Shown piece after piece: positions 6,532 through 38,809 of a DNA stretch of 64,000 bases. The notes beneath the pieces are model-generated. The model searched no databases, was not told where the DNA came from, and was given only the letters and a program-made list of their open reading frames with translations. Numbering within the stretch: position 1 is the first letter of the stretch; each line of letters opens with the position of its first letter. This stretch comes from Rhodovulum visakhapatnamense. GTDB taxonomy: Bacteria; Pseudomonadota; Alphaproteobacteria; Rhodobacterales; Rhodobacteraceae. Location: positions 1 through 64,000 of the forward strand of contig NZ_SOEB01000022.1 in the NCBI RefSeq assembly GCF_004365965.1, written 5' to 3'. Position numbers and translations under genes: made by a program.

Positions 6532-8289
6532 ATGGCCCTTACTCCCAAATCAGATGGCTCGGGTGCAACCGGCGATGAAAGCCTTGGCATCGAGGCTTTT
6601 CAGGCCGTTGACCGCATACGAGAGGCGCTCTCGGGACAGCTCAGCGGCGGGGTCTCGCCCGGCTCGCTGATGATGGCCTATGTCGACTGGGCCTTTCATC
6701 TGGCGCAGGCACCGGGCAAGCAGATGGAACTGGGCGTCAAGGCGGGCCGCAAATGGCAGCGTCTCATGGCGCATCTGATGGCCTCGGCGATGGATCCGCA
6801 GGCCGCGCCGGTCATCACGCCCTTGCCGGGCGACCGCCGTTTCGCCGGTGAAGCCTGGGCGAAACCGCCCTTCAGCTGGATGTCGCAGGCTTTCCTGCTG
6901 CAGCAGCAATGGCTGCATAACGTCACCCATGAGGTTCCGGGCGTGACGAAGCACCACGAGGATGTGGTGTCTTTTGCCGCGAAACAGATCCTTGATGTCT
7001 GTGCGCCTTCGAACAACCCTTTTACCAATCCCGAGGTTGTGGCACGGACCTGGGCTACCGGAGGCATGAACCTTGTGAAGGGCTGGCAGAACTGGCTGCA
7101 GGACGTCGTCCGCCAGATCCGGCAGGAGCCGCCAGAGGGTGTCGAGGCCTTTACACCGGGTCGCGATGTGGCGGTGACGCCGGGCAAGGTAATCTTCCGC
7201 AACCACCTGATCGAACTGATCCAGTATACGCCCACGACAGAAACCGTGCACCCCGAGCCGGTGCTGATCGTTCCGGCCTGGATCATGAAATACTATATCC
7301 TCGACCTCAGCCCGGAGAATTCACTGATCCGCTGGCTGGTGGCGCAGGGCCACACGGTTTTCGCCATTTCCTGGCGCAATCCGGGTGCAGAGGATCGTGA
7401 TCTGACGCTGGAGGATTATCGCCGGCTGGGCGTGATGGCCGCGTTGGATGAGATCACCCGTCTAATGCCCGATCAGAAAATCCACGCCACCGGCTATTGT
7501 CTGGGTGGCACTTTGCTGTCGATCGCGGCGGCTGCCATGGCGGGGAAGGGGGACGCGCGTCTCGCCTCGCTGACGCTGCTTGCCGCGCAGGTCGATTTCG
7601 CCGAACCGGGCGAGCTTGCGTTGTTCATCGACCCAAGCCAGCTGCATCTTCTTGAAAGCATGATGTGGAACCGCGGCTATCTCTCTGCCGATCAGATGGC
7701 GGGGGCGTTTCAGCTTTTGCGCTCGAATGACCTCATCTGGTCCCGGATGGTGCGCGATTACATGATGGGCGAGCGGACGGCGATGAATGATCTCATGGCC
7801 TGGAATGCCGACAGCACCCGGATGCCCTATCGGATGCATGCCGAATATCTGCGCAGGCTTTATCTGAATAATGAGCTTTCTTCGGGACGCTTCACCGCCG
7901 GGGGCAAGACAGTTCTGTTGCAGAACATCCGGGTGCCGATCTTTGCCGTCGGGACCGAGCGCGATCATGTCGCACCCTGGAAGTCGGTCTACAAAATCCA
8001 CCAGTTCACCGATTGCGAGGTGACTTTCGCGCTGACGTCGGGCGGGCATAATGCGGGGATCGTCTCTCCTCCCGGTCACCCGCGCCGCCGCTACCGGCTG
8101 GCGACCCGCGCCCATGACGACGCGCTTTTGCCGCCCGAGACCTGGGTCGAGGCCAATCCTGCAACCGAGGGTTCGTGGTGGACGCCCTGGCAGGCCTGGC
8201 TTGCCGCGCGTTCGGGTGCCCCCGCCGCGCCGCCCGCAATGGGCAACGCGCTGGCAGATGCGCCCGGCACATATGTTTTCCAGAGGTGA
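6532..8289 (+). CDS. phaC: Poly(3-hydroxyalkanoate) synthase, class I type
   Basis: Polymerises hydroxyacyl-CoA into intracellular polyester granules. The 585-residue length fits class I PhaC. The alpha/beta-hydrolase core carries the modified lipase box GYCLGG (321-326) with nucleophile Cys323. The other expected triad residues are Asp478 (TERDHVAPW) and His506 (SGGHNAG). Other family blocks are PAWIMKYYILDLSPENS and WRNPGAEDRDL. It heads an operon with a MaoC-Pta fusion and acetate kinase, so polymer synthesis may be tied to acetyl-phosphate metabolism when oxygen is short; an FNR box lies upstream. Alphaproteobacteria often carry several PhaC proteins, so this may be a secondary synthase. 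Confidence 0.93.
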   Translation: MALTPKSDGSGATGDESLGIEAFQAVDRIREALSGQLSGGVSPGSLMMAYVDWAFHLAQAPGKQMELGVKAGRKWQRLMAHLMASAMDPQAAPVITPLPGDRRFAGEAWAKPPFSWMSQAFLLQQQWLHNVTHEVPGVTKHHEDVVSFAAKQILDVCAPSNNPFTNPEVVARTWATGGMNLVKGWQNWLQDVVRQIRQEPPEGVEAFTPGRDVAVTPGKVIFRNHLIELIQYTPTTETVHPEPVLIVPAWIMKYYILDLSPENSLIRWLVAQGHTVFAISWRNPGAEDRDLTLEDYRRLGVMAALDEITRLMPDQKIHATGYCLGGTLLSIAAAAMAGKGDARLASLTLLAAQVDFAEPGELALFIDPSQLHLLESMMWNRGYLSADQMAGAFQLLRSNDLIWSRMVRDYMMGERTAMNDLMAWNADSTRMPYRMHAEYLRRLYLNNELSSGRFTAGGKTVLLQNIRVPIFAVGTERDHVAPWKSVYKIHQFTDCEVTFALTSGGHNAGIVSPPGHPRRRYRLATRAHDDALLPPETWVEANPATEGSWWTPWQAWLAARSGAPAAPPAMGNALADAPGTYVFQR

Positions 8290-26828: not shown

Positions 26829-27272
26829 TCATTGTGCCTCCAGACCTTCGGGGGCATCCTGGGACGCGACGTGGAGCACGGTCAGAACCCGCCGCTTTCC
26901 ATCCCTGGTATCCCAGTGGAGCGATGCGCCCTCTGCCAGTCCGATCAGGGCAACCCCGATCGGTGTCAGGATCGAGATCCGCCCGCGTGCGATGTCGGCG
27001 TCCTCTGGATAGACGGGCGTTACCGTCTTTTCCTGGCCGGTCGACTCATCCCGATAGGTGACCGCGCGACCGATGGCCACGACGTTCTGCGGGAGTTTCG
27101 CCGCCGGAACGATACGGGCCCGGCCGATTTCGCCGAGCAGCCGGTCGGCAAGGTCCGGGTTGCGCTGGATCGCGCCCTCCGCAAGTGCCTCGAGCCTTTC
27201 CAGGCAGTCCGCACCTATGACGATCCTGGGCCGCCGGCCGGTGTCGCGTGACGTAGAGAGTTGTTTGTTCAT
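26829..27272 (-). CDS. rnk: Rnk/GreA-type regulator of nucleoside diphosphate kinase (copy A)
   Basis: A 147-residue protein of the Rnk/GreA-GreB C-terminal family. The N-terminal short coiled coil contains IVIGADCLERLEALAEGAIQ. The FKBP-like domain contains AIGRAVTYRD, YPEDADIARGRISILTPIG and ALIGLAEG, the signature of the fold. The chosen ATG (27272) has AAAGGAAAC upstream. Rnk proteins can bind RNA polymerase near the secondary channel and alter NDP kinase levels in E. coli; the role here is inferred. It follows the degenerate paralogue at 27356 by 83 bases, and the pair is repeated, inverted, at 37869-38809. Confidence 0.85.
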   Translation of the reverse strand: MNKQLSTSRDTGRRPRIVIGADCLERLEALAEGAIQRNPDLADRLLGEIGRARIVPAAKLPQNVVAIGRAVTYRDESTGQEKTVTPVYPEDADIARGRISILTPIGVALIGLAEGASLHWDTRDGKRRVLTVLHVASQDAPEGLEAQ

Positions 27273-27355: not shown

Positions 27356-27823
27356 TCAGGCCGCGGCTTGGTCCGGAGACGGATGCACATCCAACACCAC
27401 GACGACTTCGATCTGACCGTCATCCCGCAGAAGCGGAACCTTCTGCAGTTTTCGCATCCCGATCAGGGTCGCCCCAAGCAATGAAGCAACGAGAATATGT
27501 CCCGGGACCGGCACGGGGTTCATGGAAAGCACGCCGCTGCGAGCGCCCTCACCGCTGATCATGTAGGTGACGTGGCATCCGGCCACGACAAGATCAGGCG
27601 AGGCCGGCTCGGGAGTTCCGCGCGAGATCCGCAGCTTGTGGCGCAGCAGCCCGTTTAGCAGAGCGGGATTGGGCGAATTCCTGGTTCCGCGATAGCGAAG
27701 CAGGTGCTCGATGCCGAGCCGGTCTTCGACAGTGAGAAGAAAGCCGCGCCCGACAGCGGAGCGTTCAAAGAGCGATCGAAAGTCACTGCCGGCAGGCTGG
27801 TGGGTGATCCTGGTAATGGTCAT
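27356..27823 (-). CDS. Divergent Rnk/GreA-fold protein (partner A)
   Basis: A 155-residue protein that pairs with the Rnk gene downstream. The N-terminal half is unlike Rnk (LFERSAVGRGFLLTVEDRLG). The C-terminal half keeps the GreA-like fold in degenerate form: VVAGCHVTYMISGEG, then VASLLGATLIGMRKLQKVPLLRDDG and VVVLDVHP. Its paralogue at 37869 shares SSLLGATLLGM and PLLRDDGSI in the same order. The ATG has GGGAG eight bases upstream. A conserved leader element lies 42 bases upstream (27866-27937). Whether it binds RNA polymerase or regulates its partner is unknown. Confidence 0.75.
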   Translation of the reverse strand: MTITRITHQPAGSDFRSLFERSAVGRGFLLTVEDRLGIEHLLRYRGTRNSPNPALLNGLLRHKLRISRGTPEPASPDLVVAGCHVTYMISGEGARSGVLSMNPVPVPGHILVASLLGATLIGMRKLQKVPLLRDDGQIEVVVVLDVHPSPDQAAA

Positions 27824-27865
27824 GATATGTCTCCCGGAGCGGTAAAGCCCGCGTTCTCAGATGCA

Positions 27866-27937
27866 AGGATGTGAGAAAGCCCCGGGTGGTCGAAGACGCG
27901 CTTATGCGCAGACCGCCCGGGGACTCGGGCGGTTCAG
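27866..27937 (-). promoter_or_regulatory. Conserved leader element, copy A
   Basis: Read on the minus strand it starts CTGAACCGCC, five variable bases, CCCCGGGCGGTC, then about 24 bases later CCCGGGGCT and ACATCC. It aligns without gaps over 71 bases with copy C (37758-37829). The first block forms a hairpin (CCGCCCG with CGGGCGG); the later CCCGGGG could pair instead with its CCCCGGG. It ends 42 bases before the start codon at 27823. Confidence 0.6.
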
Positions 27938-28117
27938 AAGCAGAAACCGAAAAAGGTTTTCGTGCGTGACCATGTGGAGACCTTAGTCTTTGGGCGCACC
28001 CTGTCAATCTTCGAGACCGGGCGGGTTTTGGAACGGACAAGGATGCACAGATCCCGCGAAGGTGAAGAAGGCGAATTGATGACGAGGTCCACGAGGCAGA
28101 CTGTCGACGACAGGGGG

Positions 28118-28333
28118 TCACAGACGGCGCACCTCGAAGAATGAGCTACGTCGATCTTCCTGGATTGGCCAGCGGCGTGGCAGCGGGATGATGTTCGCCG
28201 ATATCGTGCGACCACCATCGTCTTCCCAACGCGCCAGGCATCTGGCGCTCGGCGTCGCCGCCGAAGGTTCTATGTCCTTCGGCCCGAAAAGGTCCGGGAA
28301 CAGCTCTTCGAAGTCCGCCTTGCAGATCATCAT
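28118..28333 (-). CDS. Small unknown protein in the stress island
   Basis: A 71-residue protein starting at ATG ATG (28333/28330) behind a strong AAGGAG. The N-terminus MICKADFEELFPDLFGPK is acidic and amphipathic; the C-terminus is basic (RRWPIQEDRR, FFEVRRL). It has one Cys near the start and another in ARCLARWEDDGG. I do not recognise a family. The good ribosome site and position between two other stress-island genes make it likely to be real. Confidence 0.55.
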   Translation of the reverse strand: MMICKADFEELFPDLFGPKDIEPSAATPSARCLARWEDDGGRTISANIIPLPRRWPIQEDRRSSFFEVRRL

Positions 28334-28431
28334 TTCGTCACTCCTTTCCATCATTTCATGGCGAGCCGCTACTCGGCCATTGCCGCGCACCACTGCCGTC
28401 CAGTGCTGTGTATTCTCGAGAATAGGACCGG

Positions 28432-28734
28432 CTATGCCGTTCGGCCGCCGCGCCACCCCGCATCGACATGCACATCCGATGAAACTGGACGCATGCTCAG
28501 TTCGCGATCCGTGAGACCATCGACGACGCGCGGGATATCACTGCGATCAATCCCGATGTCGCGCAGCAGGCGATCGTCCATGCCTCGAAGAGTTTCGATC
28601 ATTTTCCGGCGTTGCCAGCGGCGGAAGGCGGTCCGGAGCCAACGTCGAAATGCTCCGGGCTTGCGGTTGAGCTGACTGGCCCTTCGAGGGGGTGGGAAGT
28701 GAGGGGTATTGGATTTGAAGACGTGGGGGTGCAT
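28432..28734 (-). CDS. DUF1127 small protein
   Basis: A 100-residue protein whose middle matches DUF1127: RRKMIETLRGMDDRLLRDIG followed by IDRSDI. These Arg-rich helices are known in some alphaproteobacteria as RNA- or partner-binding small regulators of stress and carbon use (family knowledge). I chose the ATG at 28734 because GGAG lies seven bases upstream; an alternative ATG at 28746 would add four residues. The N-terminal extension of about 40 residues (HVFKSNTPHFPPPRR) is longer than in typical 40-60-residue members. A leader element like those of the two Rnk-partner genes lies about 117 bases upstream. Confidence 0.75.
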   Translation of the reverse strand: MHPHVFKSNTPHFPPPRRASQLNRKPGAFRRWLRTAFRRWQRRKMIETLRGMDDRLLRDIGIDRSDIPRVVDGLTDRELSMRPVSSDVHVDAGWRGGRTA

Positions 28735-28850
28735 GTCATGCTCCATGACGAAGAAACTGAACCGAGACGCACGCACCACGTCAGCTGGGTGACCCGCACA
28801 GGCGTGATCTTCCGGCCATATTGGCGCGTTTGCCACTTCGACTGATCTGT

Positions 28851-28922
28851 AAGAGATCGAGATGACCCCGAGGCGCGGACCGGCAAGCGGCCTGATCCCG
28901 CCCGGGGCTACCGGCGGTTCAG
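28851..28922 (-). promoter_or_regulatory. Conserved leader element, copy B
   Basis: On the minus strand: CTGAACCGCC, GGTAG, CCCCGGGCGG, then CTCGGGG about 25 bases later and a TCTCGATC stretch. It aligns with copies A and C with a one-base offset in the second half, and points the same way toward its gene (DUF1127). It ends about 116 bases before the start codon. Confidence 0.55.
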
Positions 28923-28969
28923 TGTGTTTCCTGCGTTGATCAGGAACCTCGTATGAAGACTGAACATGG

Positions 28970-29128
28970 TCATGACTGAGATATCGGCAATCCGCGTGTG
29001 TTTATCAAGAGCACGGCGTGGCCTGCGACCTTCTGGCGCCGAATGGACCTGCACCGGTTTCGTTCCGGTCTTTTGGAGCGATAGTCGCCATCAAGGAGAT
29101 CGGATAGCGCCATTCTCTTTTCGGTCAT
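28970..29128 (-). CDS. Possible 52-residue peptide
   Basis: Weak candidate in an otherwise empty stretch (28923-29413). The ATG at 29128 has GGAG six bases upstream. The peptide is basic (TEKRMALSDLLDGDYRSKRP, ending in RGLPISQS) with no known family. The start resembles the first residues of some IS256-type transposases, which may be chance. Nothing else is visible in this gap. Confidence 0.25.
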   Translation of the reverse strand: MTEKRMALSDLLDGDYRSKRPERNRCRSIRRQKVAGHAVLLINTRGLPISQS

Positions 29129-29413
29129 CGTCATCTCCGTTCTCGGTCTCAGGTGTTGCAACCCGAACCTTCTCCGAAGATCGGCGGTGCGGTACCGACC
29201 GCGCACACCACTTCGATCCACCCTTCCCTGAACGCCAACATGTGTCTCCCGCGCGGTGACCACGGAGAGAACCTCAGAGGCCGGCACGCAGGATAAACGG
29301 CAGAGAGATCAGCGCTCGACCAAGGCGATTAGAGAACGCTCAGGGACAGCATCATAATGTCCCAGCCGCTTGTGTGAGGATCGCCGGCATTCGCGAGGTC
29401 TGACCGGGCCGTG

Positions 29414-30160
29414 TCAGAGAGGCGTTGAGTGTTCTTGGAAACCCTGATCGCGTGCGGATGCAAGTATATCGATCATGGCCTCTTGCGATGGGGCTGTCGC
29501 CACGCGTATTTTACGCCAGCCTTTCCGGTCGAGGCCGCTTGCAACCTTTTCCGAAAGGACCGCGGCGGTCATGGTCTGCAGGCAAGCAGATACCCTCGCC
29601 TCCTCGCAAAGCGCGGTGAAGAAATGCGCGGTGCGATAGGACATGAAGACAATGCAGTCGATATCGCCACGGCGGAGCAGTTCCCGTGTCGCATTCGAGA
29701 GAGATCTCGCCGGCGTGGCCCTATATGCAACGACGCGCCGCGCGTCATGGCCATGACGCTCAAGCGCCCGGGCCATGTCCTCGGTGATGTCCCACCCGCT
29801 CAGATAGGTGATCCGGCCCTCGGACGGGTTCCGTTTCTTCAGGATGAGGTCCAACAAGCTTGTCGCATCCCCGGCTGCTTCGTGAACACAGGTGAATCCC
29901 ACCCGACGCAGAGGCGCAGCTGTTCCGGCACCGACAGCGTAAATCGGGACCGTCCTGCATACGGAAGGGTCATTCGCGATCCGCAGCGAGGCATAGACGG
30001 ACGTGACCACGAATGCCTTGGAAGCTTCGAGGGTCTCAGGGCTGAAGTCGACATACGACACATCCAGGATCGGCGCAAGCGAGACCTGTAAACCCATGTT
30101 TTCAAGCGACAGCTTCATGGCCTCGGCTTGCAGGGCGGGACGCGTAAGGAGAATATGCAT
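29414..30160 (-). CDS. hemD: Uroporphyrinogen-III synthase
   Basis: Cyclises hydroxymethylbilane to uroporphyrinogen III, the branch point to haem, sirohaem and haem d1. At 248 residues it is of normal length. HemD proteins are poorly conserved, but the layout fits: ILLTRPALQAEAM at the start, FVVTSVYASLR (VTS motif), PIYAVGAGTA, YLSGWDITEDMARALERHG and VFMSYRTAHFF, with IRVATAPSQEAM near the end. It lies among nitric-oxide-response genes, so it may be an extra copy raising haem supply for respiratory enzymes (inference). Confidence 0.85.
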   Translation of the reverse strand: MHILLTRPALQAEAMKLSLENMGLQVSLAPILDVSYVDFSPETLEASKAFVVTSVYASLRIANDPSVCRTVPIYAVGAGTAAPLRRVGFTCVHEAAGDATSLLDLILKKRNPSEGRITYLSGWDITEDMARALERHGHDARRVVAYRATPARSLSNATRELLRRGDIDCIVFMSYRTAHFFTALCEEARVSACLQTMTAAVLSEKVASGLDRKGWRKIRVATAPSQEAMIDILASARDQGFQEHSTPL

Positions 30161-30333
30161 CGAGGCCGGGCCTTTCTGTTTTCTTCGCCGCTCACTTGGA
30201 GCCCGCCGGTTCAGGGGCCTCGGTTAGGTCTTCCAGATCATCCGGCCCGTGCGCCACTTTCGGATCGTTTTTCCCGTCGATTGTCAAGTTTGCAAACCAG
30301 GCCATTGTGTTTGCGCCAATGGGCCATAACGCT

Positions 30334-30750
30334 TCAGAAATCCGGCCTTGCCGGAAGGGCAATGTCGGCGAGCGTCGAGCGGTCGAGATCGGCGAGGAAG
30401 GCGGCCTCGGCCGAGCGCAGGCGCGCCTTGAGCCGGCAGCAGCGCTCTATCGTGCAATCGCCGCCATCGGGCGCGAAGCATTCCACCAGGGCCTGCCCCT
30501 CTTCCAGCGCGCGGACGATCCTGCCCAGAGTGATCCCATCGGCAGGATGCGCGAGGATGGCCCCTCCGCCCCCGCCGCGTCTTGTCTGCACAAGGTCCGC
30601 CTGCGCCAGCCGCTGCATGATCTTGGCCAGGTGATTGCGGGACAGACCGAATTCCTCGGCGAGTTCCGCGGTCGAGAAGGCACGGTCCGGCGCGCTTGCC
30701 ATGCGCATCAGCATGCGCAGCCCGTAATCGGTGAAAGACGTGAGACGCAT
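30334..30750 (-). CDS. nsrR: Rrf2-family regulator, NsrR type
   Basis: Nitric-oxide-sensing Fe-S repressor of 138 residues. The N-terminal winged helix (LTSFTDYGLRMLMRMA, LSRNHLAKIMQRLAQADLVQ) is typical of Rrf2 proteins. Cys91, Cys99 and Cys105, with an extra Cys104, match the three-cysteine spacing of Bacillus subtilis NsrR (92, 100, 106). It is divergent from a truncated haemoglobin gene; a perfect palindrome in the 83-base gap is a likely operator for both. NO would destroy the cluster and relieve repression. Confidence 0.88.
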   Translation of the reverse strand: MRLTSFTDYGLRMLMRMASAPDRAFSTAELAEEFGLSRNHLAKIMQRLAQADLVQTRRGGGGGAILAHPADGITLGRIVRALEEGQALVECFAPDGGDCTIERCCRLKARLRSAEAAFLADLDRSTLADIALPARPDF

Positions 30751-30771
30751 GTCGGCTGAACACCCCTCCTG

Positions 30772-30794
30772 AATAGGTATTTACAATACCTATT
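30772..30794. promoter_or_regulatory. Perfect palindrome, probable NsrR operator
   Basis: AATAGGTATT, three bases (TAC), AATACCTATT: a 23-bp perfect palindrome between nsrR and the haemoglobin gene, 22 bases from the nsrR start and 40 from the other. Size, A/T content and position fit an Rrf2-family operator. It would let NsrR control itself and the NO-detoxification genes. Confidence 0.75.
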
Positions 30795-30833
30795 ACTGTG
30801 GGTATGGCTAGAGGCAACAGACGGGAGCGCCCG

Positions 30834-31304
30834 ATGGTCGCCAATGCCTCCACCACGGCAATCGCCAGCGCCCGGCCGGAGATGACCGCCGCGCTGATGG
30901 ACGAGACCGGCCTCGATGACGATGTGCTGCGCGAGCTGGTGCACCGCTTCTACGACCGGGTGCGGGCTGATCCGGTACTGGCGCCCATCTTCGCGGCGCG
31001 GATTACCGACTGGGCGCCGCACCTGGATCGGATGGTGGCCTTCTTGTCCTCGGTCACGCTGATGACGGGTCGGTATCATGGGCGCCCGGTGCCGAAACAC
31101 GCGCCACTGCGGCTCGGGTCGGCTCATTTCGACCGATGGCTTGCCCTGTTCCGGACAGCGGCGCGCTATGTCTGCACGCCCGCGGGCGCCGAACACGTGA
31201 TCGCGCGCGCCGAGCGGATCGCCCGGTCGCTGCACATGGCCTGCACCGATGCCTGCATGGCCCCCGGGGACATCCCCGTGCTGCGGAGCGCCGCCGCCGA
31301 GTGA
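30834..31304 (+). CDS. Truncated haemoglobin, group III-like
   Basis: A 156-residue globin, here probably used in NO or oxygen handling since it faces nsrR. It has LVHRFYDRVRADPVLAPIF, the start common to truncated globins, then HLDRMVAFLSSVTLMTGRYHG. The haem-proximal region is SAHFDRWLALFRTA, where His of AHF is the likely proximal ligand. The ATG at 30834 has GGGAG six bases upstream. The N-terminal 20 residues (Ala/Thr-rich) are an extension. It heads the run through the DUF488, cyclo-ligase, NnrS and NnrU genes. Confidence 0.85.
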   Translation: MVANASTTAIASARPEMTAALMDETGLDDDVLRELVHRFYDRVRADPVLAPIFAARITDWAPHLDRMVAFLSSVTLMTGRYHGRPVPKHAPLRLGSAHFDRWLALFRTAARYVCTPAGAEHVIARAERIARSLHMACTDACMAPGDIPVLRSAAAE

Positions 31305-31398
31305 TCCGATGCCCGCCGCACGGAGCGGCGAGGCCAAGGCCGAGCTTTCGGAAGCGAACGCCGGCACCAAACAAGACAAGGCAGCAAAGGAGACAGAC

Positions 31399-31704
31399 AT
31401 GACACGCCAGGTCCTCACCGCATTCGCCGTCTGCGCCCTCGTCTTCACAACGGTACCGGCCAAAGCCCAGGAGAACGAGTCGTCCTGGCTGCCCAGTCTG
31501 CTGACCGACACGCCCGAACAGGGCTTCGACCTTGCGGTGTTGATGGCGCGCCGCGCCGTCAAGACCACCCAGACGGACGTGGACACGTTGCACAAACTGC
31601 GCCCCGCCTATGCAAACGACCCCGACAGCCTGATCCACGTCTCGGGCGTGATCGCCGCCTATTTCGCGACCGTCGCCGAGGCCAACGGCTACTGGCGTGA
31701 CTGA
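31399..31704 (+). CDS. Small periplasmic protein of the NO-response cluster
   Basis: A 101-residue exported protein: signal peptide TRQVLTAFAVCALVF ... AKAQ, cleaved after about residue 24. The mature part is acidic then helical (EQGFDLAVLMARRAVKTTQT, VSGVIAAYFATVAEANGYW). Start ATG at 31399 has AAAGGAGAC upstream. No cofactor motif is visible and I do not recognise the family. It lies 94 bases after the globin gene and 18 before the DUF488 gene, in the same direction, so it is probably part of the NsrR-controlled run. Confidence 0.65.
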   Translation: MTRQVLTAFAVCALVFTTVPAKAQENESSWLPSLLTDTPEQGFDLAVLMARRAVKTTQTDVDTLHKLRPAYANDPDSLIHVSGVIAAYFATVAEANGYWRD

Positions 31705-31722
31705 TCCGGCGCGGCTGACGGA

Positions 31723-32103
31723 ATGACTGCAATTCACGCCATCCGCATCGCACGGGTCTATGACGATCTCGAGGGCATCTCCGGTGCGCGTGTCCTGGTC
31801 GACGGGGTCTGGCCCCGCGGGGTAAGCCGCGAGGGCCTGCAACTCGACGACTTGATCCGCGAGGTCGCGCCATCGACCGCGCTGCGCAAGTGGTTCGGTC
31901 ACGATCCCGCCCGCTGGACGGAATTCCGCGACCGATACCGCGCGGAGCTCGCGGACAATCCCGAAGCGGTCGCGCGGTGTCTGGACTGGTGCCGCGCGGG
32001 CCCGGTGGCTCTTCTCTTCGGGGCGAAGGATCGCGACCACAACCAGGCCGTGGTGTTGCGCGACCATCTGCGCGCGAGCCTGCATGGGGAGATGCCGTCG
32101 TGA
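31723..32103 (+). CDS. DUF488-family protein (YeaO-like)
   Basis: A 126-residue cytoplasmic protein with the DUF488 pattern: IARVYDD, VLVDGVWPRGVSREGLQ (usually DRLWPRG), EVAPSTALRKWFGHDPARW and FRDRYRAELADN, followed by a GPVALLFGAKDRDHNQAVV block. Function in this family is unknown; a cysteine-based or nucleotide-related reaction has been suggested but nothing here proves it. It is often found next to nitrosative-stress genes such as NnrS in alphaproteobacteria, which agrees with this position. Confidence 0.8.
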   Translation: MTAIHAIRIARVYDDLEGISGARVLVDGVWPRGVSREGLQLDDLIREVAPSTALRKWFGHDPARWTEFRDRYRAELADNPEAVARCLDWCRAGPVALLFGAKDRDHNQAVVLRDHLRASLHGEMPS

Positions 32104-32211
32104 GCCAAAGGATGACGCCAGGCCGCCGACCGGTCCGGGCGGTCGGGGACTCCCGCGCATCGGGCCAATCGGCGCAGTCCGCGACGGACCGCCGGCCATG
32201 AAGAGGATGAG

Positions 32212-32910
32212 ATGAACGACCAGGACAAACCGGCAGCCCGCTTCGCCTCGCCTCCCTGCATGGCGGGCGAAATCGCACCCGATTATTTCAACCCGCTCGG
32301 CACGGACTCCACGCAGGCCAGGGATGTGGCCCGATGGCGCCGGGCGGAGCGCGCGCGGCTGCGCGTCGCGCGTGGGAAGATCCCGGTGGCGGAGCACCGC
32401 AGGACAAGCCAGGCGCTGGCCGGGCATTTGCTCGATCTTCTTTCGAACCGTTTCGGCGGCGCGCGGGGCCGTGTCCTGTCCGGCTATTGGCCGATCAAGG
32501 GCGAGCCCGACCTGCGCGCAGCCCTGGCCGACCTGCACGACGCGGGCGTCATGATCGCGCTGCCGATCGTGGAGGAAAAGGCGGCGCCCCTGGTGTTCCG
32601 CCGTTGGGCTCCGACCACCCGGATGGTGCTGGGCGACTGGAACATCCCCGTCCCGCCCGCCAAGGCGGCGCGCGTCACGCCCGCGATCATGCTCGCGCCG
32701 CTGATGGGCTGGGACGGCGCAGGCTATCGCCTTGGCTATGGCGGCGGCTATTTCGACCGCACGCTGGCGGCGCTGTCCCCGCGCCCCGCGACCATCGGGA
32801 TCGGGTTCCAGTCCGCGCAGCTCGCCACGATCCACCCCAAACCGCACGACATCGCGCTCGACGTCATCCTGACCGAGGCGGGTGTCCAAGTCACGCGGGA
32901 GGCCCCATGA
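32212..32910 (+). CDS. 5-formyltetrahydrofolate cyclo-ligase family protein
   Basis: ATP-dependent conversion of 5-formyl-THF to 5,10-methenyl-THF. The 232-residue protein has the family core: RAERARLRVAR (usual RxxxR start), SGYWPIKGEPDLR, VLGDWNIPVPP and GYRLGYGGGYFDRTLA, the conserved Gly-rich nucleotide site. A 40-residue N-terminal extension (PPCMAGEIAPDYFNPLG) precedes the domain and is not typical of housekeeping MTHFS. Its stop overlaps nnrS (ATGA), and such a gene next to nnrS suggests a special role in NO stress (inference). The 108 bases before it hold no gene. Confidence 0.85.
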   Translation: MNDQDKPAARFASPPCMAGEIAPDYFNPLGTDSTQARDVARWRRAERARLRVARGKIPVAEHRRTSQALAGHLLDLLSNRFGGARGRVLSGYWPIKGEPDLRAALADLHDAGVMIALPIVEEKAAPLVFRRWAPTTRMVLGDWNIPVPPAKAARVTPAIMLAPLMGWDGAGYRLGYGGGYFDRTLAALSPRPATIGIGFQSAQLATIHPKPHDIALDVILTEAGVQVTREAP

Positions 32911-34106
32911 GCAGCACGGCCGAGAAGATGCGGGCATGGACCGGGCCGGCGATCCTGAGTTTCGGGTTCCGGCCGTTCTTCCTTGGGGGCGCGCTCTGGG
33001 CGGCGCTCGCCATGGCGCTCTGGATCGGCATGCTCAGCGGACGCCTCGCCTTGCCGACCGCGTTCGACCCGATCTCCTGGCATGCGCACGAGTTCCTGTT
33101 CGGCTATCTCGGCGCGGTCGCCGCGGGCTTTCTGCTGACGGCGGTACCCAACTGGACCGGGCGATTGCCCATCGTCGGCTGGCCACTCGGCGCGCTCTTC
33201 GCCACCTGGTGTCTCGGCCGGATCGCCGTCGCCCTGTCCGCGGAACTGCCGCCCATCTCAGTCGCTATGGCCGATCTGCTGTTCCCGGTCACACTGGCCT
33301 CGGTGCTCGGCCGCGAGATCGTCGCGGGACGCAACTGGCGCAACCTGATCGTGCTGGCCATGCTCTGCCTCTTCATCCTCGGCAACGCCCTGTTCCACTG
33401 GGAGGCTGCGCGGGGGTACCCCGGTGCACAGGGAGTGGGGCTGCGGCTGGGTCTTGGGACCGGGATCATGATGATCGGGGTGATCGGGGGGCGGATCGTG
33501 CCGTCCTTCACCCGCAACTGGCTGGTCCGGCAGAACAGCCCGGTCCTGCCCACCCCGCCGATGCAGCGCTTCGACAAGCTGGCGCTGTTGGCGCTCGGCC
33601 TCGCGCTGTTGCTCTGGGTCATCGCGCCCATGGCGATGGTGACCGGCACGGCCCTGCAGCTCGCGGGCGGCCTGCATCTGATCCGGCTGGCGCGGTGGGC
33701 GGGGCACCGCACCAGCGCCGAGCCGCTGGTGCTGGTCCTGCATGCGGGCTACCTCTTCGTGCCGCTCGGTGCGTTGGCCGTGGGGGCCACGGTGTTCTGG
33801 CCGGACGCGGTCGGCATGGGCTCTGCCCAGCATGTCTGGATGGCCGGTGGACTTGGTCTGATGACGCTGGCGGTGATGACGCGCGCGACGCTCGGCCATA
33901 CAGGACAGACGCTGCGCGCCGATACCGGCACGATCGCGATCTACCTGTTGCTGCTGCTTGCGGTTCTGGCACGCCTGCTTGCAGGCGCATTTCCGGGCCT
34001 TGCATCGCTGTTCCATACCCTCTCCGGCCTGACCTGGATCGGCGCCTTCGGCGGCTTTGCCATGCTATATGGGCGATACGTCCTGAGACACCGTCCGGAG
34101 CACTGA
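32907..34106 (+). CDS. nnrS: NnrS family haem-copper membrane protein
   Basis: Polytopic inner-membrane protein, 399 residues and about 12 hydrophobic helices, reported in this family to bind haem and copper and to ease NO stress. The conserved ISWHAHEFLFGYLGAVAAGF segment near the N-terminus contains likely metal/haem-binding histidines. More family blocks are GIMMIGVIGGRIVPSFT, HAGYLFVPLG and THTGQTL-like LGHTGQTLRAD. The frame is open further upstream, but the ATG overlapping the cyclo-ligase stop is the natural start. Under likely NsrR control through the run that starts at 30834. Confidence 0.9.
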   Translation: MSSTAEKMRAWTGPAILSFGFRPFFLGGALWAALAMALWIGMLSGRLALPTAFDPISWHAHEFLFGYLGAVAAGFLLTAVPNWTGRLPIVGWPLGALFATWCLGRIAVALSAELPPISVAMADLLFPVTLASVLGREIVAGRNWRNLIVLAMLCLFILGNALFHWEAARGYPGAQGVGLRLGLGTGIMMIGVIGGRIVPSFTRNWLVRQNSPVLPTPPMQRFDKLALLALGLALLLWVIAPMAMVTGTALQLAGGLHLIRLARWAGHRTSAEPLVLVLHAGYLFVPLGALAVGATVFWPDAVGMGSAQHVWMAGGLGLMTLAVMTRATLGHTGQTLRADTGTIAIYLLLLLAVLARLLAGAFPGLASLFHTLSGLTWIGAFGGFAMLYGRYVLRHRPEH

Positions 34107-34136
34107 GGGATGGGCTGAGGCGGATTCATCGCTGTC

Positions 34137-34622
34137 TTGTCAGGCTTCTTCATCCTGCATTCCATTCCGGTGCGCCCGCCCGTCCGGTCCTGGCTGGTCA
34201 GGCGGCTGGGGCGTGCGGGCTTCGGCATCGCCTATTCGTTCCAGTCGCTGGCGATGCTTGGCGTTCTCCTGGTGGCCGCCAACCGGGCGCCGTATCTGGC
34301 CCTGTGGCCCGAGCCGCCGGGTGCCCATTGGCTTGTTCTGGTGGCGACGACGGCGGCCATCCTGGTCCTGGTCTTCGGGTTGTTCCGCCCCAACCCCCTG
34401 TCCTTCGGCGGCCTTCGGAATACGGCGTTCGACCCGCGCGACCCGGGCATCCTGCGCTATTGCCGCCACCCGGTACTGCTGGCGCTGTTGCTGTGGTCGG
34501 GGGCGCATCTGATCGCGAACGGCGACCTGGCCCATGGCCTGATGTTCGGCAGTTTCGCCCTGTTTTCCCTGCTGGGCACGTGGGCCATCGACCGGCGGCG
34601 GCAGCGGGACATGGGGGACTAG
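34137..34622 (+). CDS. nnrU: NnrU family protein, with in-frame TGA at codon 3 of the expected start
   Basis: Membrane protein linked to nitric-oxide metabolism (NnrU family, also related to MAPEG-like methyltransferase folds). About five helices; GIAYSFQSLAMLG, DPRDPGILRYCRHPVLLALL and LANGDLAHGLMFGSFALFSL are family blocks. The natural start is probably ATG 34110 (GAGGG upstream), which reads Met-Gly-stop-Gly-Gly-Phe-Ile-Ala in frame with the gene. Homologues have Trp at that place (MGW...), so TGG has become TGA. The gene may be expressed from TTG 34137, which loses the first nine residues, or be broken. Confidence 0.75.
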   Translation: MSGFFILHSIPVRPPVRSWLVRRLGRAGFGIAYSFQSLAMLGVLLVAANRAPYLALWPEPPGAHWLVLVATTAAILVLVFGLFRPNPLSFGGLRNTAFDPRDPGILRYCRHPVLLALLLWSGAHLIANGDLAHGLMFGSFALFSLLGTWAIDRRRQRDMGD

Positions 34623-34646
34623 GTCTGGCGGCGAGCCGTTGCGCAG

Positions 34647-34781
34647 ATGCGGTCGGCGCCCATGCGTTTACCCCAAGGCGCGAGGGCCCGCTTTGCCGGT
34701 GGCCTTGTCGCCATGGCCCTGCTCATGGTGCAGCATCCGTGGCTGGCGGGGGGCGGCATACTGGAACAGTTCACCCCATAG
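34647..34781 (+). CDS. Possible 44-residue membrane peptide
   Basis: A short frame 25 bases after nnrU, with a hydrophobic middle (FAGGLVAMALLMVQ). It lacks a strong ribosome site and has no known family. Reported only as a candidate; the following 300 bases (to 35089) show no gene or repeat. Confidence 0.25.
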   Translation: MRSAPMRLPQGARARFAGGLVAMALLMVQHPWLAGGGILEQFTP

Positions 34782-35089
34782 GCTTATGACACGGCCCCGG
34801 TTCGTTCGGCGCACCGGAGAACATGGCCGCCGACAATGGATGCAGGTGCCGTCCCCTCCGCTGGCGGACCGCCGAGCGCGTCGCTTGCATCACCCACGCA
34901 ACCCGCCACCGATGACATGCCACGGAGTCGAGCCATTTCTCCCAGTGTGCAACCCAGAGTGTTGACGGCGGGAGGATAAGGGTCTACCCGGCAGCCACGG
35001 GATGATGGCGTCATTCCGTTCCCCCAGTATCGTCCTGCACGCCCGGATCTGTTCCAGCACCGCCGCCGCGGTGTCAGAGGAGGTTTTTC

Positions 35090-36037
35090 ATGGCACACCT
35101 GACCGTTGTCCCGTCCGATCTCGCCGGTTTCGAGAAGCGCGCCGGTATCGCCGCGATGTGCATGGCCATGGCGTTGCTGCCTATCGGGGACGCGATCTCG
35201 AAAACCCTGACCGGGTTTACCACACCATTCGAAGTGACCGTCTGGCGCACACTGGTGCAGGCGGCTTTCTTCGTCCCGGTCGCGGTGATCCTTCGGCACC
35301 ATCTCAGCGGGTCACTTCTATCGGCTGCGTCGCTCGTCTCGGCCCTGCTCATTGTCACCGTGAGCCTGTCTCTGGTGACCGCCTTCGCATCGATGCCGAT
35401 CGCCACCGCGATTGCGATCTTCTTCGTGGAGCCACTGCTCCTGACGCTGTTGGCCGGTCCGTTCCTCGGCGAAGTTCCGGGCCCGCGCAGGTATGCCGCG
35501 GTCGGTGTCGGTCTGATCGGCGCCTTGGTCGTGATCCGGCCGAACTTCGTCGAGTTCGGGCCGGTTGTCCTGTTGCCAGTGCTGGCCGCGTTGGCCTATG
35601 CGCTCAACATGATCGTCATGCGGAAAGCGACGCGCGACCGGTCCGCGCTGACCTTCCAGTTCGGCGCCTCTCTGTCGGCCGGAGCCATCGTTCTGGTGGC
35701 GCATCTCTTGGCAAGCGCACTCGGGTTCGAGCGGACCGCCGTCTCCGGATTGCCGGGCTGGGTTCTCTGGATCGTTCTCGCGGCTGGTGCCCTTGCGATG
35801 GTTGCATTTCTCGCGATCACCTTCGCATTCAGCAAGGCGGAGGCAAGCCTGCTTGCGCCGTTCCAGTATCTGGAGATCGTCGGCGCGACCCTTGTGGGGT
35901 ACCTCGTCTTCTGCGAAATCCCGGATGGAATGACGCTGCTGGGCACGGCGATCATCCTGGGCTCCGGCGTCTATGTGTTTTATCGCGAGCGCCAGCGCGA
36001 AGTGGAGGCCGCCACATGCCAGCCGATTGAGCGATAG
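35090..36037 (+). CDS. EamA/DMT-family transporter
   Basis: Inner-membrane exporter or importer of the drug/metabolite transporter superfamily, 315 residues with ten hydrophobic helices in two EamA repeats. Typical features are ALLPIGDAISKTLTG and TPFEVTVWRTL in the first repeat, IATAIAIFFVEPLLLTLLAG at its end, and SKAEASLLAPFQYLEIVGATLVGY in the second. A preceding AGGAGG (35078-35083) supports the start. It converges on the GntR regulator at 36044; substrate unknown. Confidence 0.85.
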   Translation: MAHLTVVPSDLAGFEKRAGIAAMCMAMALLPIGDAISKTLTGFTTPFEVTVWRTLVQAAFFVPVAVILRHHLSGSLLSAASLVSALLIVTVSLSLVTAFASMPIATAIAIFFVEPLLLTLLAGPFLGEVPGPRRYAAVGVGLIGALVVIRPNFVEFGPVVLLPVLAALAYALNMIVMRKATRDRSALTFQFGASLSAGAIVLVAHLLASALGFERTAVSGLPGWVLWIVLAAGALAMVAFLAITFAFSKAEASLLAPFQYLEIVGATLVGYLVFCEIPDGMTLLGTAIILGSGVYVFYRERQREVEAATCQPIER

Positions 36038-36052
36038 GGGGCGTCACCCCCT
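36036..36052. terminator. GC hairpin between converging genes
   Basis: AGGGGG, five bases, CCCCCT at the meeting point of the EamA and GntR genes. It overlaps both stop regions and lacks a T-tract, so a bidirectional terminator is only a suggestion. Confidence 0.35.
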
Positions 36053-36739
36053 GTCGTCCGGCTGCTGCATCGCGCCCATGATGGTTCTCAGGTGGGCCCG
36101 CATTGCGGCTTCGGCGGCCTGCGGATCGCCCCGGCCAATTGCAGCGACGACATCGCCATGCTGATCGCTGTGCAGGCCGGCGAATTCCCTGACGCCGATC
36201 CGGCGGTAGGTCCGATCCCATTCCCTTTGCCAGGCGGCGCGACGCCGCGCGCTCGCAAGGTAGTCGAGAAACCCGCCGAGCAAGGGGTTTCCTGCGACTT
36301 CTGCCACGCCGCGATGGAACCCGGCATCGGCCGTCTCCGCCTCGGCCCGTCCAGAGGCGCCTCTTCCTTGCGCAACGAGGCCCTCGAGATAGGCCACGTC
36401 GGGCGCCGAGGCGCGTCTTGCGGCCTCTGCCGCGATTGGCGGTTCGATCATCAGCCGGGCCTGCATAAGCTGCTCAGGGGCGGTCGCACTCAGCAGGATT
36501 GTCTCCTTGACGGGGTGGCCAAGCGGCGCGGGTCCGCGGAACGTGCCCTTGCCGACCTTCCGCCAGATTTCGCCTTCCCGTTCCATCTCCAGCAATGCCG
36601 CGCGCACGGTCTGGCGACTGCACCCCAGAAGCCCCGCAAGAGCGCGTTCGGTCGGCAGGCGATCGCCGATGAGCGGCGCTTGCTCGTCTAGAAGCGCGCG
36701 CAATCGTTCCAATGCAATGGCTGGACTCGTTCTTGGCAT
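36044..36739 (-). CDS. FadR-subfamily GntR regulator
   Basis: Transcription factor of 231 residues. The N-terminal winged helix has GDRLPTERALAGLLGCSRQTVRAALLEMEREG in the usual order (split: PTERALAGLLGCSRQTV). The C-terminal FCD-like all-helical domain carries Asp and His positions for a metal/ligand site (AGFHRGVAEVAGNPLL, HSDQHGDVVAAI). It is divergent from the TauE-like permease at 36831, the most likely target, with 91 bases between the start codons. The ligand is unknown; sulfonates or C2-C4 acids are common in this group. Confidence 0.85.
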   Translation of the reverse strand: MPRTSPAIALERLRALLDEQAPLIGDRLPTERALAGLLGCSRQTVRAALLEMEREGEIWRKVGKGTFRGPAPLGHPVKETILLSATAPEQLMQARLMIEPPIAAEAARRASAPDVAYLEGLVAQGRGASGRAEAETADAGFHRGVAEVAGNPLLGGFLDYLASARRRAAWQREWDRTYRRIGVREFAGLHSDQHGDVVAAIGRGDPQAAEAAMRAHLRTIMGAMQQPDDRG

Positions 36740-36830
36740 TGGTCATGCGTCCAAGGTGATGCGTACCAATTTGCAGACCATTGCGGTTTCGCGCAAGAGC
36801 GGGTTGATGGTTCCCGGGCCGGAGGTTGCA

Positions 36831-37580
36831 ATGACCGTATACCTTGTCCTGATCCTCACGGGCCTTGCCGCGGGCGCGCTGAACGCCGTGGCCGGAGGAG
36901 GGACCTTTCTGTCCTTTCCGGCCCTTGTCTGGACCGGCGTGCCGCCGATCATGGCCAATGCGACCGCTACCCTTGCGGCCTTGCCCGGCTATCTCTGCAG
37001 CGCCTGGGCGTTCCGTGCGGACGTCCGTCGGGCGCGCAGCCTGCCTGTGCGTCTGGTTCTGCTTGTATCCGCATTGGGCGGAATCCTGGGCGCGGTTCTG
37101 CTGCTGGTGACGCCGAGCGCCGTCTTTTCAGGTGTGGTTCCGTGGCTGCTGGCCTTTGCCACCGCGGCCTTTGCCTTCGGCCCTCCGATCACGCGGCGCA
37201 TCGCCCGCATGGGAAAGGGCACGTTTGGACTGCCGCAGGCGGCTGCCGTGCTCTTGGCGGTCACGATCTATGGCGGCTATTTCAACGGCGGCGTCGGGAT
37301 CCTGCTTCTCGCAGCCTTCGGCCTGATCGGCCTTACCGACCTGAGGGAGATGAACGGGCTGAAGAACCTTGTCTCGTCCGTCCTCTCTGCGGTCTCCGTT
37401 ACGGTTTACATTGCTGCCGACCTGATCGCCTGGAAAGAAGCACTGGTTCTCGGCGCCGCATCGGCCATCGGTGGGTATATCGGCGCGGCGCTCTCGCGGC
37501 GCATCCACAATGTGAGGGCGCTCCGGGCCTTCATTGCACTGGTCGGCGCAAGCATGTCCCTCGTCTTTTTCCTGAGGTAA
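36831..37580 (+). CDS. TauE/SafE-family sulfite/organic anion permease
   Basis: Membrane permease of 249 residues and seven to eight helices. It has the TauE/SafE pattern in both halves: LAAGALNAVAGGGTFLSFPAL (N-terminal GGGTFL-type motif) and YGGYFNGGVGILLLAAFGL in the second. These families export sulfite, sulfoacetate or related anions. The ATG at 36831 with GGAGG five bases upstream is the clear start although the frame stays open upstream. Regulation by the divergent GntR gene is likely. Confidence 0.85.
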   Translation: MTVYLVLILTGLAAGALNAVAGGGTFLSFPALVWTGVPPIMANATATLAALPGYLCSAWAFRADVRRARSLPVRLVLLVSALGGILGAVLLLVTPSAVFSGVVPWLLAFATAAFAFGPPITRRIARMGKGTFGLPQAAAVLLAVTIYGGYFNGGVGILLLAAFGLIGLTDLREMNGLKNLVSSVLSAVSVTVYIAADLIAWKEALVLGAASAIGGYIGAALSRRIHNVRALRAFIALVGASMSLVFFLR

Positions 37581-37757
37581 GTCCTTGTTGCCCAACGGAA
37601 GGCTCGAACACCCCGATGCCGTGCTACGCCGATCGGCAGAAATTGGCCGACTTCCTGCGGTTGCGATCCCGACCGGACGACCCGGATTGACCAATCGCAA
37701 CCGAGCCACTAGCTTGCTGGGATGGTGGTCTGCAATGAGCATAATGTCTTTCGTCTG

Positions 37758-37829
37758 CTGAACCGCCGGTAACCCCGGGCGGTCAGGGTGCATTTTCGCC
37801 AGCGTACCCCCGGGGCTCCTCGACATCCT
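37758..37829 (+). promoter_or_regulatory. Conserved leader element, copy C
   Basis: CTGAACCGCC, GGTAA, CCCCGGGCGGTC, 24 bases, CCCCGGGGCT and ACATCC. The same 71-base spacing as copy A (27866-27937) with identical blocks at positions 1-10, 16-27, 52-60 and 66-71. It ends 39 bases before the ATG at 37869. Confidence 0.6.
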
Positions 37830-37868: not shown

Positions 37869-38363
37869 ATGGTCATCGGTCCATTCGAAACCACGCGCAG
37901 AATCTCACAGAGCCCCCGTTGCGGCATGGTTGTACGACCTGCCGTCACGCTGACGCAGGCCGACCGGCATGAGCTTTCCAAGCTTGTTCGGCTTTGCGAC
38001 ACGGACGGAGAGATGCGATCGCTCTTCCTGCAGCATGTTCTGCGTCATAAAATGCAAAGCGCCGCCATTGTCCCCGGTGATGTGCCGAATGATGTGGCCG
38101 CCGCCGGGTCGCATGTCGTCTATTCTCTCGGTGCCGGGGTTTCCAAAACCGGGTTGCTCAGCCATCGGGCACGCGCAGGCGGGAGGTACGGGATCATTCC
38201 GGTGTCCTCGCTTCTTGGCGCGACGCTCCTGGGAATGCGTGCCGGCACCAGTGCGCCCCTCCTTCGGGACGACGGCTCAATCGTCACGCTCTTGCTGCTT
38301 GACGTCCGACATCCGGACGATGCCGCTTCGCCTGACACGCGCAATTTACTCTTTCAAGCTTGA
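37869..38363 (+). CDS. Divergent Rnk/GreA-fold protein (partner C)
   Basis: A 164-residue paralogue of the protein at 27356. The unusual N-terminal half includes TRRISQSPRCGMVV and the helix LTQADRHELSKLVRLCDTDG. The C-terminal half has the degenerate GreA-like fold: AAGSHVVYSLGAGVSKTG, IPVSSLLGATLLGMRAG, PLLRDDGSI and LLLLDVRHPDD. GAGGAG lies five bases before the ATG. It precedes the second Rnk copy by 14 bases and has the conserved leader upstream. The order partner-then-Rnk is the same as in the first module. Confidence 0.75.
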   Translation: MVIGPFETTRRISQSPRCGMVVRPAVTLTQADRHELSKLVRLCDTDGEMRSLFLQHVLRHKMQSAAIVPGDVPNDVAAAGSHVVYSLGAGVSKTGLLSHRARAGGRYGIIPVSSLLGATLLGMRAGTSAPLLRDDGSIVTLLLLDVRHPDDAASPDTRNLLFQA

Positions 38364-38377
38364 GGCAGGTAATCACC

Positions 38378-38809
38378 ATGAATATCCAGACTAAATCGAC
38401 GTCGCGCTCAAAGCTTCGCCCCAAAATCGTCATAAGTGAAAAAGACCTCGACCGGCTCGAAGCGTTGGCCGAGGGTGCGGCGAAGCGCAATCCGCAATTG
38501 TCCGACCGCCTTCTCGAGGAACTTGCGCGGGCGCGCATCATGCCTGCCGCCAAGTTTCCGGCGCATGTCGTGACGATCGGAAATCGCGTCACCTATCGCG
38601 ACGAACTGACCCGAGAGGAGAAAACGATCAGCCTCTCCTTTCCCGAGGACGCGGATATCGGTGCGGGCCGGGTTTCGGTCATGACCCCGCTTGGCGTGGC
38701 CCTGATCGGCCTGTCCGAAGGCGCCGCCTTCCACTGGGAGACGCGGGACGGCCATCGACGGACCCTGACGGTCCTGAAGGTCACATCAAGCGAACCGGAA
38801 AAGGCGTGA
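38378..38809 (+). CDS. rnk: Rnk/GreA-type regulator (copy C)
   Basis: A 143-residue paralogue of copy A. It has the short coiled coil IVISEKDLDRLEALAEGAAK, then the FKBP-like domain: TIGNRVTYRDELTREEKTIS, FPEDADIGAGRVSVMTPLG and ALIGLSEGAAFHWETRDG. The start ATG 38378 follows the partner's stop by 14 bases and is a better choice than the overlapping in-frame start at 38360. Both Rnk copies keep the conserved PEDADI and TP(I/L)GVALIGL, so both are probably functional. Role inferred from E. coli Rnk. Confidence 0.85.
   Translation: MNIQTKSTSRSKLRPKIVISEKDLDRLEALAEGAAKRNPQLSDRLLEELARARIMPAAKFPAHVVTIGNRVTYRDELTREEKTISLSFPEDADIGAGRVSVMTPLGVALIGLSEGAAFHWETRDGHRRTLTVLKVTSSEPEKA

Follow-up and report, generated by a model that had tools for sequence, protein, structure and literature searches.

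A repeated motif closes short leader reading frames

A 64,000-nucleotide (nt) stretch of the Rhodovulum visakhapatnamense genome (contig NZ_SOEB01000022.1; hereafter the window) carries three copies of a short element, each upstream of a gene for a GreA-fold partner of Rnk or for a DUF1127 protein, and the question raised by this locus is what the element does for the genes behind it. An earlier reading of the same DNA, the original prediction, had placed the three copies with a second C/G block in each, and had taken them for an RNA control element and not a protein-coding repeat. The motif CTGAACCGCC-N5-CCCCGGGCGG was indeed found without mismatch at 27913-27937 (copy A, minus strand), 28898-28922 (copy B, minus strand) and 37758-37782 (copy C, plus strand), with the second block at 27880-27886, 28866-28872 (as CTCGGGG) and 37809-37815. 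The distances from motif to downstream ATG, 42 nt in copy A, 113 nt in copy B (125 nt with the other candidate start of the DUF1127 gene) and 39 nt in copy C, agree with those first given. Chance would supply 0.01 motifs per dinucleotide-shuffled window, and three copies occurred in 0/100 shuffles. No exact copy was found in the organism's own genome (4.43 Mb, 80 contigs) beyond the three of the window; the next closest site has two mismatches, and no second block was seen behind it.

All three copies form the 3′ end of an open short frame that begins 36 or 51 nt before CTGAAC. Leader open reading frame (ORF) A (27902-27973, minus strand), recognized by its open frame and codon signature, would encode a peptide of 23 amino acids, MVTHENLFRFLLLNRPSPRAVCA, and ends within the hairpin region described below. 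Leader ORF B (28908-28973, minus strand) would encode the 21 amino acids MTMFSLHTRFLINAGNTLNRR, is of type II and contains an internal hairpin, TTCCTG/CAGGAA, and leader ORF C (37722-37772, plus strand), an open frame, would encode the 16 amino acids MVVCNEHNVFRLLNRR. The same arrangement holds across relatives, where CTG AAC CGC CC/CG closes an ORF that starts 36 nt upstream in type I and 51 nt upstream in type II. The motif CTGAACCGCC specifies Leu-Asn-Arg-(Pro/Arg), with which a conserved leader peptide ends, and the view that the repeat is not protein-coding was not borne out. Type I peptides are typically M-x6-FRFLLLNRP, stopping there or extended by xPRAV or xPRAVCA. Those of type II are similar to MTMFSLHTRFLLxAGNTLNRR, and a rarer third form has the C-terminus LLNR(S/P)LPRAGGRM(R/G). 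Third-form leaders, of which MSVCSSKNRGRAFPGSLLNRSLPRAGGRMG is one, keep the −35 distance and were seen before more distant GreA-fold genes at L069:4431-4502 (minus strand), L096:4347-4418 (minus strand) and L068:12822-12892 (plus strand). One metagenome copy, L082:5003-5075 (minus strand), has the start codon ATA, which could be a variant start, decay or a sequence error.

Codon comparison was used to ask how these frames have changed. The synonymous share of codon differences among 66 distinct type I ORFs is 0.38 in frame and 0.11 and 0.09 off frame, with third codon positions the most variable; among 21 type II ORFs it is 0.27 in frame and 0.14 and 0.12 off frame, five third-form rows having been left out of this count and of alignment A5. 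The short ORF thus carries a coding signature, and its translation is predicted. We also searched one genome for each of 84,980 species for spellings of FRFLLLNRP, admitting all codons except TTR for Leu and AGR for Arg, so that any AAY and CGN was permitted. Of the 67 stretches obtained, the leader-like ones are mainly from Rhodobacterales by title, and seven rhizobial ones lie inside long frames. Despite the freedom allowed, Asn-Arg is spelled AAC CGC in 50/50 counted leader ORFs (frames of fewer than 60 codons), and 11 printed leader rows with longer frames have AAC CGC too. The Arg at codon 9 is almost never CGC (49 CGG, 10 CGA, 2 AGA and 1 CGT among 63; L098 has CGC), and type I leaders from AUG through LNR, taken whole, contain 28% C and 21% G. 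The invariance of AAC CGC indicates that the RNA is constrained in addition to the peptide.

Leaders recur before two kinds of gene

The recurrence that had been predicted, a leader before Rnk-partner and DUF1127 genes, was found in relatives. Among 109 distinct copies, 78 stand before a GreA-fold partner or Rnk gene, 24 before a DUF1127 gene and seven before neither (tblastn, E up to 0.01, within the next 1.3 kb); the seven include three at contig ends with less than 400 nt, outside the search (L083, L107_5347 and L140), and L077, a chance match that is still counted in the 109. In 102/109 copies the leader thus lies upstream of the gene that it would control and points in the same direction. 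Starting from the gene side, we found 24 partner-gene places in 16/199 genomes, the window's two included, and 23/24 have a leader upstream, as scored with leader model R2, for whose construction some of these genomes had been used; at the remaining place (G138/L199) no leader was found in the upstream flank.

A hairpin covaries at the end of the reading frame

Folding joins the first and second C/G blocks in a hairpin, S2, with energies of −32.3 (A), −38.2 (B) and −27.5 kcal/mol (C) and z-scores against shuffles of −3.83, −2.54 and −0.21, copy C being no stabler than its shuffles. In copy A (27880-27922, minus strand) CCCCGGG (27922-27916) pairs with CCCGGGG (27886-27880), extended by GGTC/GACC, and in copy B (28866-28907, minus strand) CCCCGGG pairs with CTCGGGG, both by folding and covariation; in copy C (37773-37815, plus strand) CCCCGGG pairs with CCCGGGG immediately behind the leader ORF stop. 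For comparison across relatives, alignment A2 was made with identical sequences collapsed, after removal of chance matches (L004, L011, L016, L017 and L024), sites with three mismatches (L005-L008) and the second, third-form copy of L035. On the mixed alignment A3 (75 distinct rows), 98.1% of S2 cells are paired and 4/7 pairs have changed on both sides, which beats all 500 shuffles, slid versions reaching at most two two-sided pairs; A3 was fitted to S2, and the mixed-alignment counts for S2 and for S1 below include L077, which was removed later. On the type I alignment A4, which was not so fitted, S2 with its extension has 5/11 two-sided pairs (1/500 shuffles; slid versions up to three), 11 two-sided cells versus up to 10 in slid versions, and a covariation score of 0.119 versus at most 0.075. 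The changes include swaps from C-G to G-C and to U-A. Because this helix shows compensatory change, the check proposed originally, covariation and recurrence within Rhodobacterales, was passed for the helix between the first and second blocks.

Other helices lie nearby. S1 (ACCGCC/GGCGGU) has 94.0% of its cells paired on A4, above all shuffles, and the first type I helix, CGGUUU/GAACCG, has 92.7% paired. Three sequences keep S1 by a G-C to C-G swap and keep S2 too (columns 48, 55 and 94 together); they may all go back to a single ancestral event. The hairpin inside the type II ORF (TTCCTGC/GCRGGAA) has 96.9% of cells paired and 3/7 pairs two-sided; 23/500 shuffles match its number of two-sided pairs and 2/500 its number of cells.

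These data bear on the proposal that the short ORF is a functional small protein, the hairpin being incidental or stabilizing the mRNA. Amino acids are conserved in RFLLLNRP and RFLLxAGNxLNRR, as such a protein would require, but the Asn-Arg codons are fixed beyond the amino acids, S2 co-varies, the stop falls at varying positions around S2 and the ORF is linked with two kinds of gene, and we regard this explanation as improbable.

Leader start codons lie at a fixed distance from promoter-like boxes

Each leader ORF of the window is preceded by a promoter-like pair of boxes. TTGACA-N16-TAAGGT (27980-28007, minus strand) has the leader A AUG 34 nt after its first T, at about the expected +1, a spacing kept across copies; TTGATA-N17-GATATC (28980-29008, minus strand) and TTGACC-N17-TAGCTT (37687-37715, plus strand), both picked out by spacing, begin 35 nt before the AUGs of leaders B and C. 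In 75/77 type I copies TTGA stands 34-36 nt ahead of the leader AUG, and in type II, TTG stands exactly 35 nt before it in 28/28 rows (the five third-form rows included), as part of TTGA in 23; L082_5003-, with ATA for ATG, and L077 are outside these counts, and two copies are untyped. Because a box-AUG spacing of 34-36 nt combined with normal −35/−10 geometry puts the AUG near +1, we consider it quite likely that the leader AUG is at or next to the transcription start, which would make the ORF leaderless. The type II boxes (TTGAAA or TTGATA, then CATAT or GATATC) resemble RpoH-type promoters. Published work on RpoH describes TTG at −36 to −34 as important for this factor (PMC3441632).

A further possibility, in line with the original prediction of a post-transcriptional control element or small RNA, is an RNA leader without a role for translation, such as a riboswitch, a protein-binding site or a small RNA. 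The strong hairpin in copies A and B and the variable stop position would fit this, but the coding signature of the ORF, the kept distance from promoter box to AUG and the lack of any Rfam match speak against it, and its probability is slim. Rfam 15 gave 0 matches for the whole window at gathering score, for 27700-29100 up to E 5 and for eight loci at gathering score, and a pure RNA element was dropped once the frame and the codon signature had been read. Still less probable, to the point of being very unlikely, is a DNA-level operator repeated before co-regulated genes: there is a GC-rich inverted repeat near the promoter-like box, but the element begins ~36 nt behind the transcription start deduced above, and its changes track codons and RNA pairs, C-G to G-C and U-A swaps among them.

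A ribosome-read leader is the preferred explanation

Taken together, the comparisons make cis-regulation by a leader peptide very probable. That the element is a ribosome-read leader, or attenuator, which couples leader-peptide translation to the downstream stress gene, is in our judgement probable. Comparison lends good support to the leader-peptide reading; for the mechanism we offer the following hypothesis. RNA polymerase would start at or next to the AUG, and ribosomes would load on the leaderless 5′ AUG. The conserved S2 hairpin lies in reach of a ribosome on the ORF, and the stop falls 0, 15 or 21 nt into the CCCCGGGCGG region in the main subtypes. By this geometry a ribosome that has reached the final codons or the stop would cover the 5′ arm of S2 (CCCCGGGCGG), so that S2 could form only while this stretch is free of ribosomes. 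In type I, three helices would share strands in a chain, CGGUUU/GAACCG, then ACCGCC/GGCGGU, then S2, which is the layout of a classical ribosome-read attenuator. Poor or stalled leader translation would shift which helix forms and raise the downstream factor, as in duf1127_1 of Sinorhizobium meliloti; induction by impaired leader translation has, we estimate, slightly less than an even chance, and its direction is taken by analogy from that gene.

Several results weigh against this attenuator. The first copies were collected by a fixed motif, which inflates the apparent conservation of the motif, and a scan for the E. coli consensus promoter gave no site at the three boxes. Of the alternative structures originally proposed, the helix between the two blocks stands on its compensatory changes, and the hairpin of the first block is upheld weakly on type I and not on the mixed alignment: S1 is unsupported on A3, and on type I its two-sided changes are no more numerous than those of slid versions. 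S2 itself shows no compensatory change among 23 type II leaders, so that type II rows alone show no covariation, the CGGUUU/GAACCG helix shows none on the type I alignment, and slid versions of the type II ORF hairpin also reach three two-sided pairs. In type I no U-run follows S2, none of 76 leaders having more than 4 T among the 8 bases behind it, and at least 5 T were found there in 4/28 type II rows only. Pairing of the stretch behind S2 with the main Shine-Dalgarno sequence averages −6.96 kcal/mol versus −5.93 kcal/mol for shuffles, the leader's own stretch being better in 35/59; it is not leader-specific, swapped stretches giving −7.16 kcal/mol and the own stretch being better in 17/59. 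Finally, in folding of the 66/77 type I leaders with a placeable main start, masking a ribosome at the stop hardly altered mean Shine-Dalgarno accessibility (0.273 to 0.280), with 11/66 up and 5 down.

The output step was considered in the light of these results. An intrinsic terminator was rejected, as no U-run stands behind S2; the terminator scans of the window accept loops of 3-8 only and are blind to S2, whose loop is longer. Sequestration of the main Shine-Dalgarno by TCTC/CTCC after S2 was striking by eye and failed both the swap test and stop-masked folding. A ribosome masked at codon 14 gave an accessibility of 0.332, more than 0.1 higher in 21/66 leaders and lower in 4, which is a weak hint, from modelling, for leader-peptide control. 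With no U-run and no leader-specific Shine-Dalgarno pairing, a Rho-dependent or RNA-stability output is as likely as any, and whether the output is at the level of transcription rather than translation is an evenly balanced question.

Distribution of the leader

The motif at up to one mismatch occurs in 22/248 family genomes, the window's own included, against a single match of the reversed control; G174, G175 and G192, which are among the 22, rest solely on matches judged to be chance. Carriers of the element include marine relatives of Rhodobacter, such as Sulfitobacter dubius and members of Pseudooceanicola and Rhodovulum. Covariance model R1, built from 31 copies, found 82 places in 35/395 family genomes at E up to 0.001, one of which (G065, L077) was judged to be chance. 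In the class sample, R1 matched 2/289 genomes, the window's own and G597, and R2 matched 4/386, namely these two, G530 and G670; the G530 and G670 matches were rejected as chance, both lying inside long frames. The clear copy outside the family is thus L180 in G597, with the peptide MMIKAQHWLIASAGRLLNRSPPRGR and TTGAAA 35 nt before the AUG; the frame after it looks DUF1127-like by eye, and the order of G597 is represented by two genomes, one with a match.

Three records with actinobacterial titles, L114 and L153 (Enemella evansiae) and L145 (Nocardioides marinus), carry the leader element. Both genera belong to the actinobacteria, and because the element is alphaproteobacterial the records are probably mislabelled.

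Downstream genes and their neighbourhoods

In the window, leader A precedes a GreA-fold partner gene (27356-27823, minus strand; 155 amino acids, no Pfam match, aligned to Rnk by profile with probability 99.3), followed by a gene for Rnk, the nucleoside diphosphate kinase regulator (26829-27272, minus strand; by protein domain searches). Leader B precedes a DUF1127 gene (28432-28737, minus strand; 101 amino acids, PF06568 at E 1.7e-7), whose translation may instead begin 12 nt later, and an 81-amino-acid frame without a Pfam match (28118-28363, minus strand) lies between this gene and leader A. Leader C precedes a second partner gene (37869-38363, plus strand; 164 amino acids), assigned by profile alignment with a weak Rnk model match (E 9e-7) below the cut-off, and a second Rnk gene (38378-38809, plus strand, given from codon 2). 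The partner protein alone has no Pfam domain match; aligned as families with hhalign, 66 partner proteins match 51 Rnk proteins with probability 99.3 and E 9e-21, and by this profile comparison the partner is GreA-fold and Rnk-like.

Among relatives, two leaders stand head to head within 400 nt in 15/44 fetched stretches (L071, L073, L081, L082, L088, L093, L095, L097, L098, L099, L102, L103, L104, L107 and L110). Such pairs are often a type I beside a type II leader, so that a single short region would send out GreA-fold and DUF1127 transcripts in opposite directions; the leaders of the window are instead spread over 10 kb. In L085, facing leaders at 4976-5048 (plus strand) and 7915-7988 (minus strand) lie ~3 kb apart with a GreA-fold gene after each. 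A duplicate leader, L070:4943-5017 (plus strand), has no intact frame in the place of the partner, which is present at L071 of the same genome. L082_6371 has no partner match downstream, and its near relatives have one. By eye, the first large frame behind L133:3614-3688 (minus strand) is similar to a mechanosensitive channel, an arrangement that perhaps follows loss of the usual partner gene.

A leader search of 62 chosen sources also found leaders on plasmids, three in Alloyangia pacifica (NZ_CP154654) and one in Limimaricola variabilis (NZ_CP139693); the PLSDB gene tables, which are incomplete, list no coding sequence at these four places. Genes for an Rrf2 regulator and for 5-formyltetrahydrofolate cyclo-ligase are neighbours of the leaders both in Alloyangia and in the window; Alloyangia has in addition a mechanosensitive channel and cbb3 oxidase genes, and the window a TMAO/DMSO-type reductase. 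For the Rrf2 regulator of the window the best named model is NsrR, which it matches below the cut-off of that model. From these neighbours, our reading is that the leaders lie in nitrosative or microaerobic stress islands.

Discussion

Three known systems invite comparison. In Rhodobacter sphaeroides, CcaF1 is a DUF1127 RNA-binding protein, and the CcsR RNAs lie downstream of its gene and carry another motif. There, as here, a DUF1127 gene has an associated RNA element; unlike the CcsR RNAs, the element described here is upstream of the gene and contains an ORF. Control of trpL in S. meliloti involves ribosome-dependent alternative hairpins, Trp codons and an intrinsic terminator. Unlike trpL, our leaders have no terminator-like U-run and no run of a single codon type beyond three Leu codons. 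The report on this system presents rnTrpL, which encodes peTrpL, as a leaderless leader-peptide mRNA starting with AUG (PMC10117765), a feature that is predicted for the present leaders as well.

The closest precedent is the attenuator in the upstream ORF (uORF) of S. meliloti duf1127_1. Attenuation there needs translation of the uORF (sORF26, 29 amino acids); tetracycline relieves it, and chloramphenicol likewise increases the RNA. The 5′ end of the transcript lies 30 nt ahead of the uORF, a Shine-Dalgarno sequence is present, and the control element consists of C-rich codons 3-10, scrambling of codons 17-24 being without effect (PMC12218461). The two systems share a uORF in the leader of an alphaproteobacterial DUF1127 gene (24/109 copies here). 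They differ in that the AUG here is predicted at +1, 34-36 nt behind its box, in place of a 30-nt Shine-Dalgarno leader, that conservation falls on the last part of the ORF and the hairpin, and that most copies precede GreA-fold/Rnk genes. Text searches of the literature listed nothing recognizable as this leader peptide or element; the kind to which we assign it, the leader-peptide attenuator, is already known.

Uniting these observations, the leaderless leader peptides could act as a shared translation sensor that sets the levels of the GreA-fold/Rnk pair, directed by analogy at RNA polymerase, and of DUF1127 through three competing helices in microaerobic or nitrosative-stress islands, a speculative proposal that we think rather less likely to be right than wrong. 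If true, one leader design would couple ribosome status to transcription elongation and RNA turnover, and the sensed state would perhaps be 70S leaderless initiation or Leu/Arg starvation under nitric oxide. The finding itself gives two unrelated families of poorly understood stress genes, DUF1127 and Rnk with its partner, one testable leader design in common, would extend uORF attenuation of DUF1127 genes beyond the single tested rhizobial case found, and predicts a class of leaderless leader peptides.

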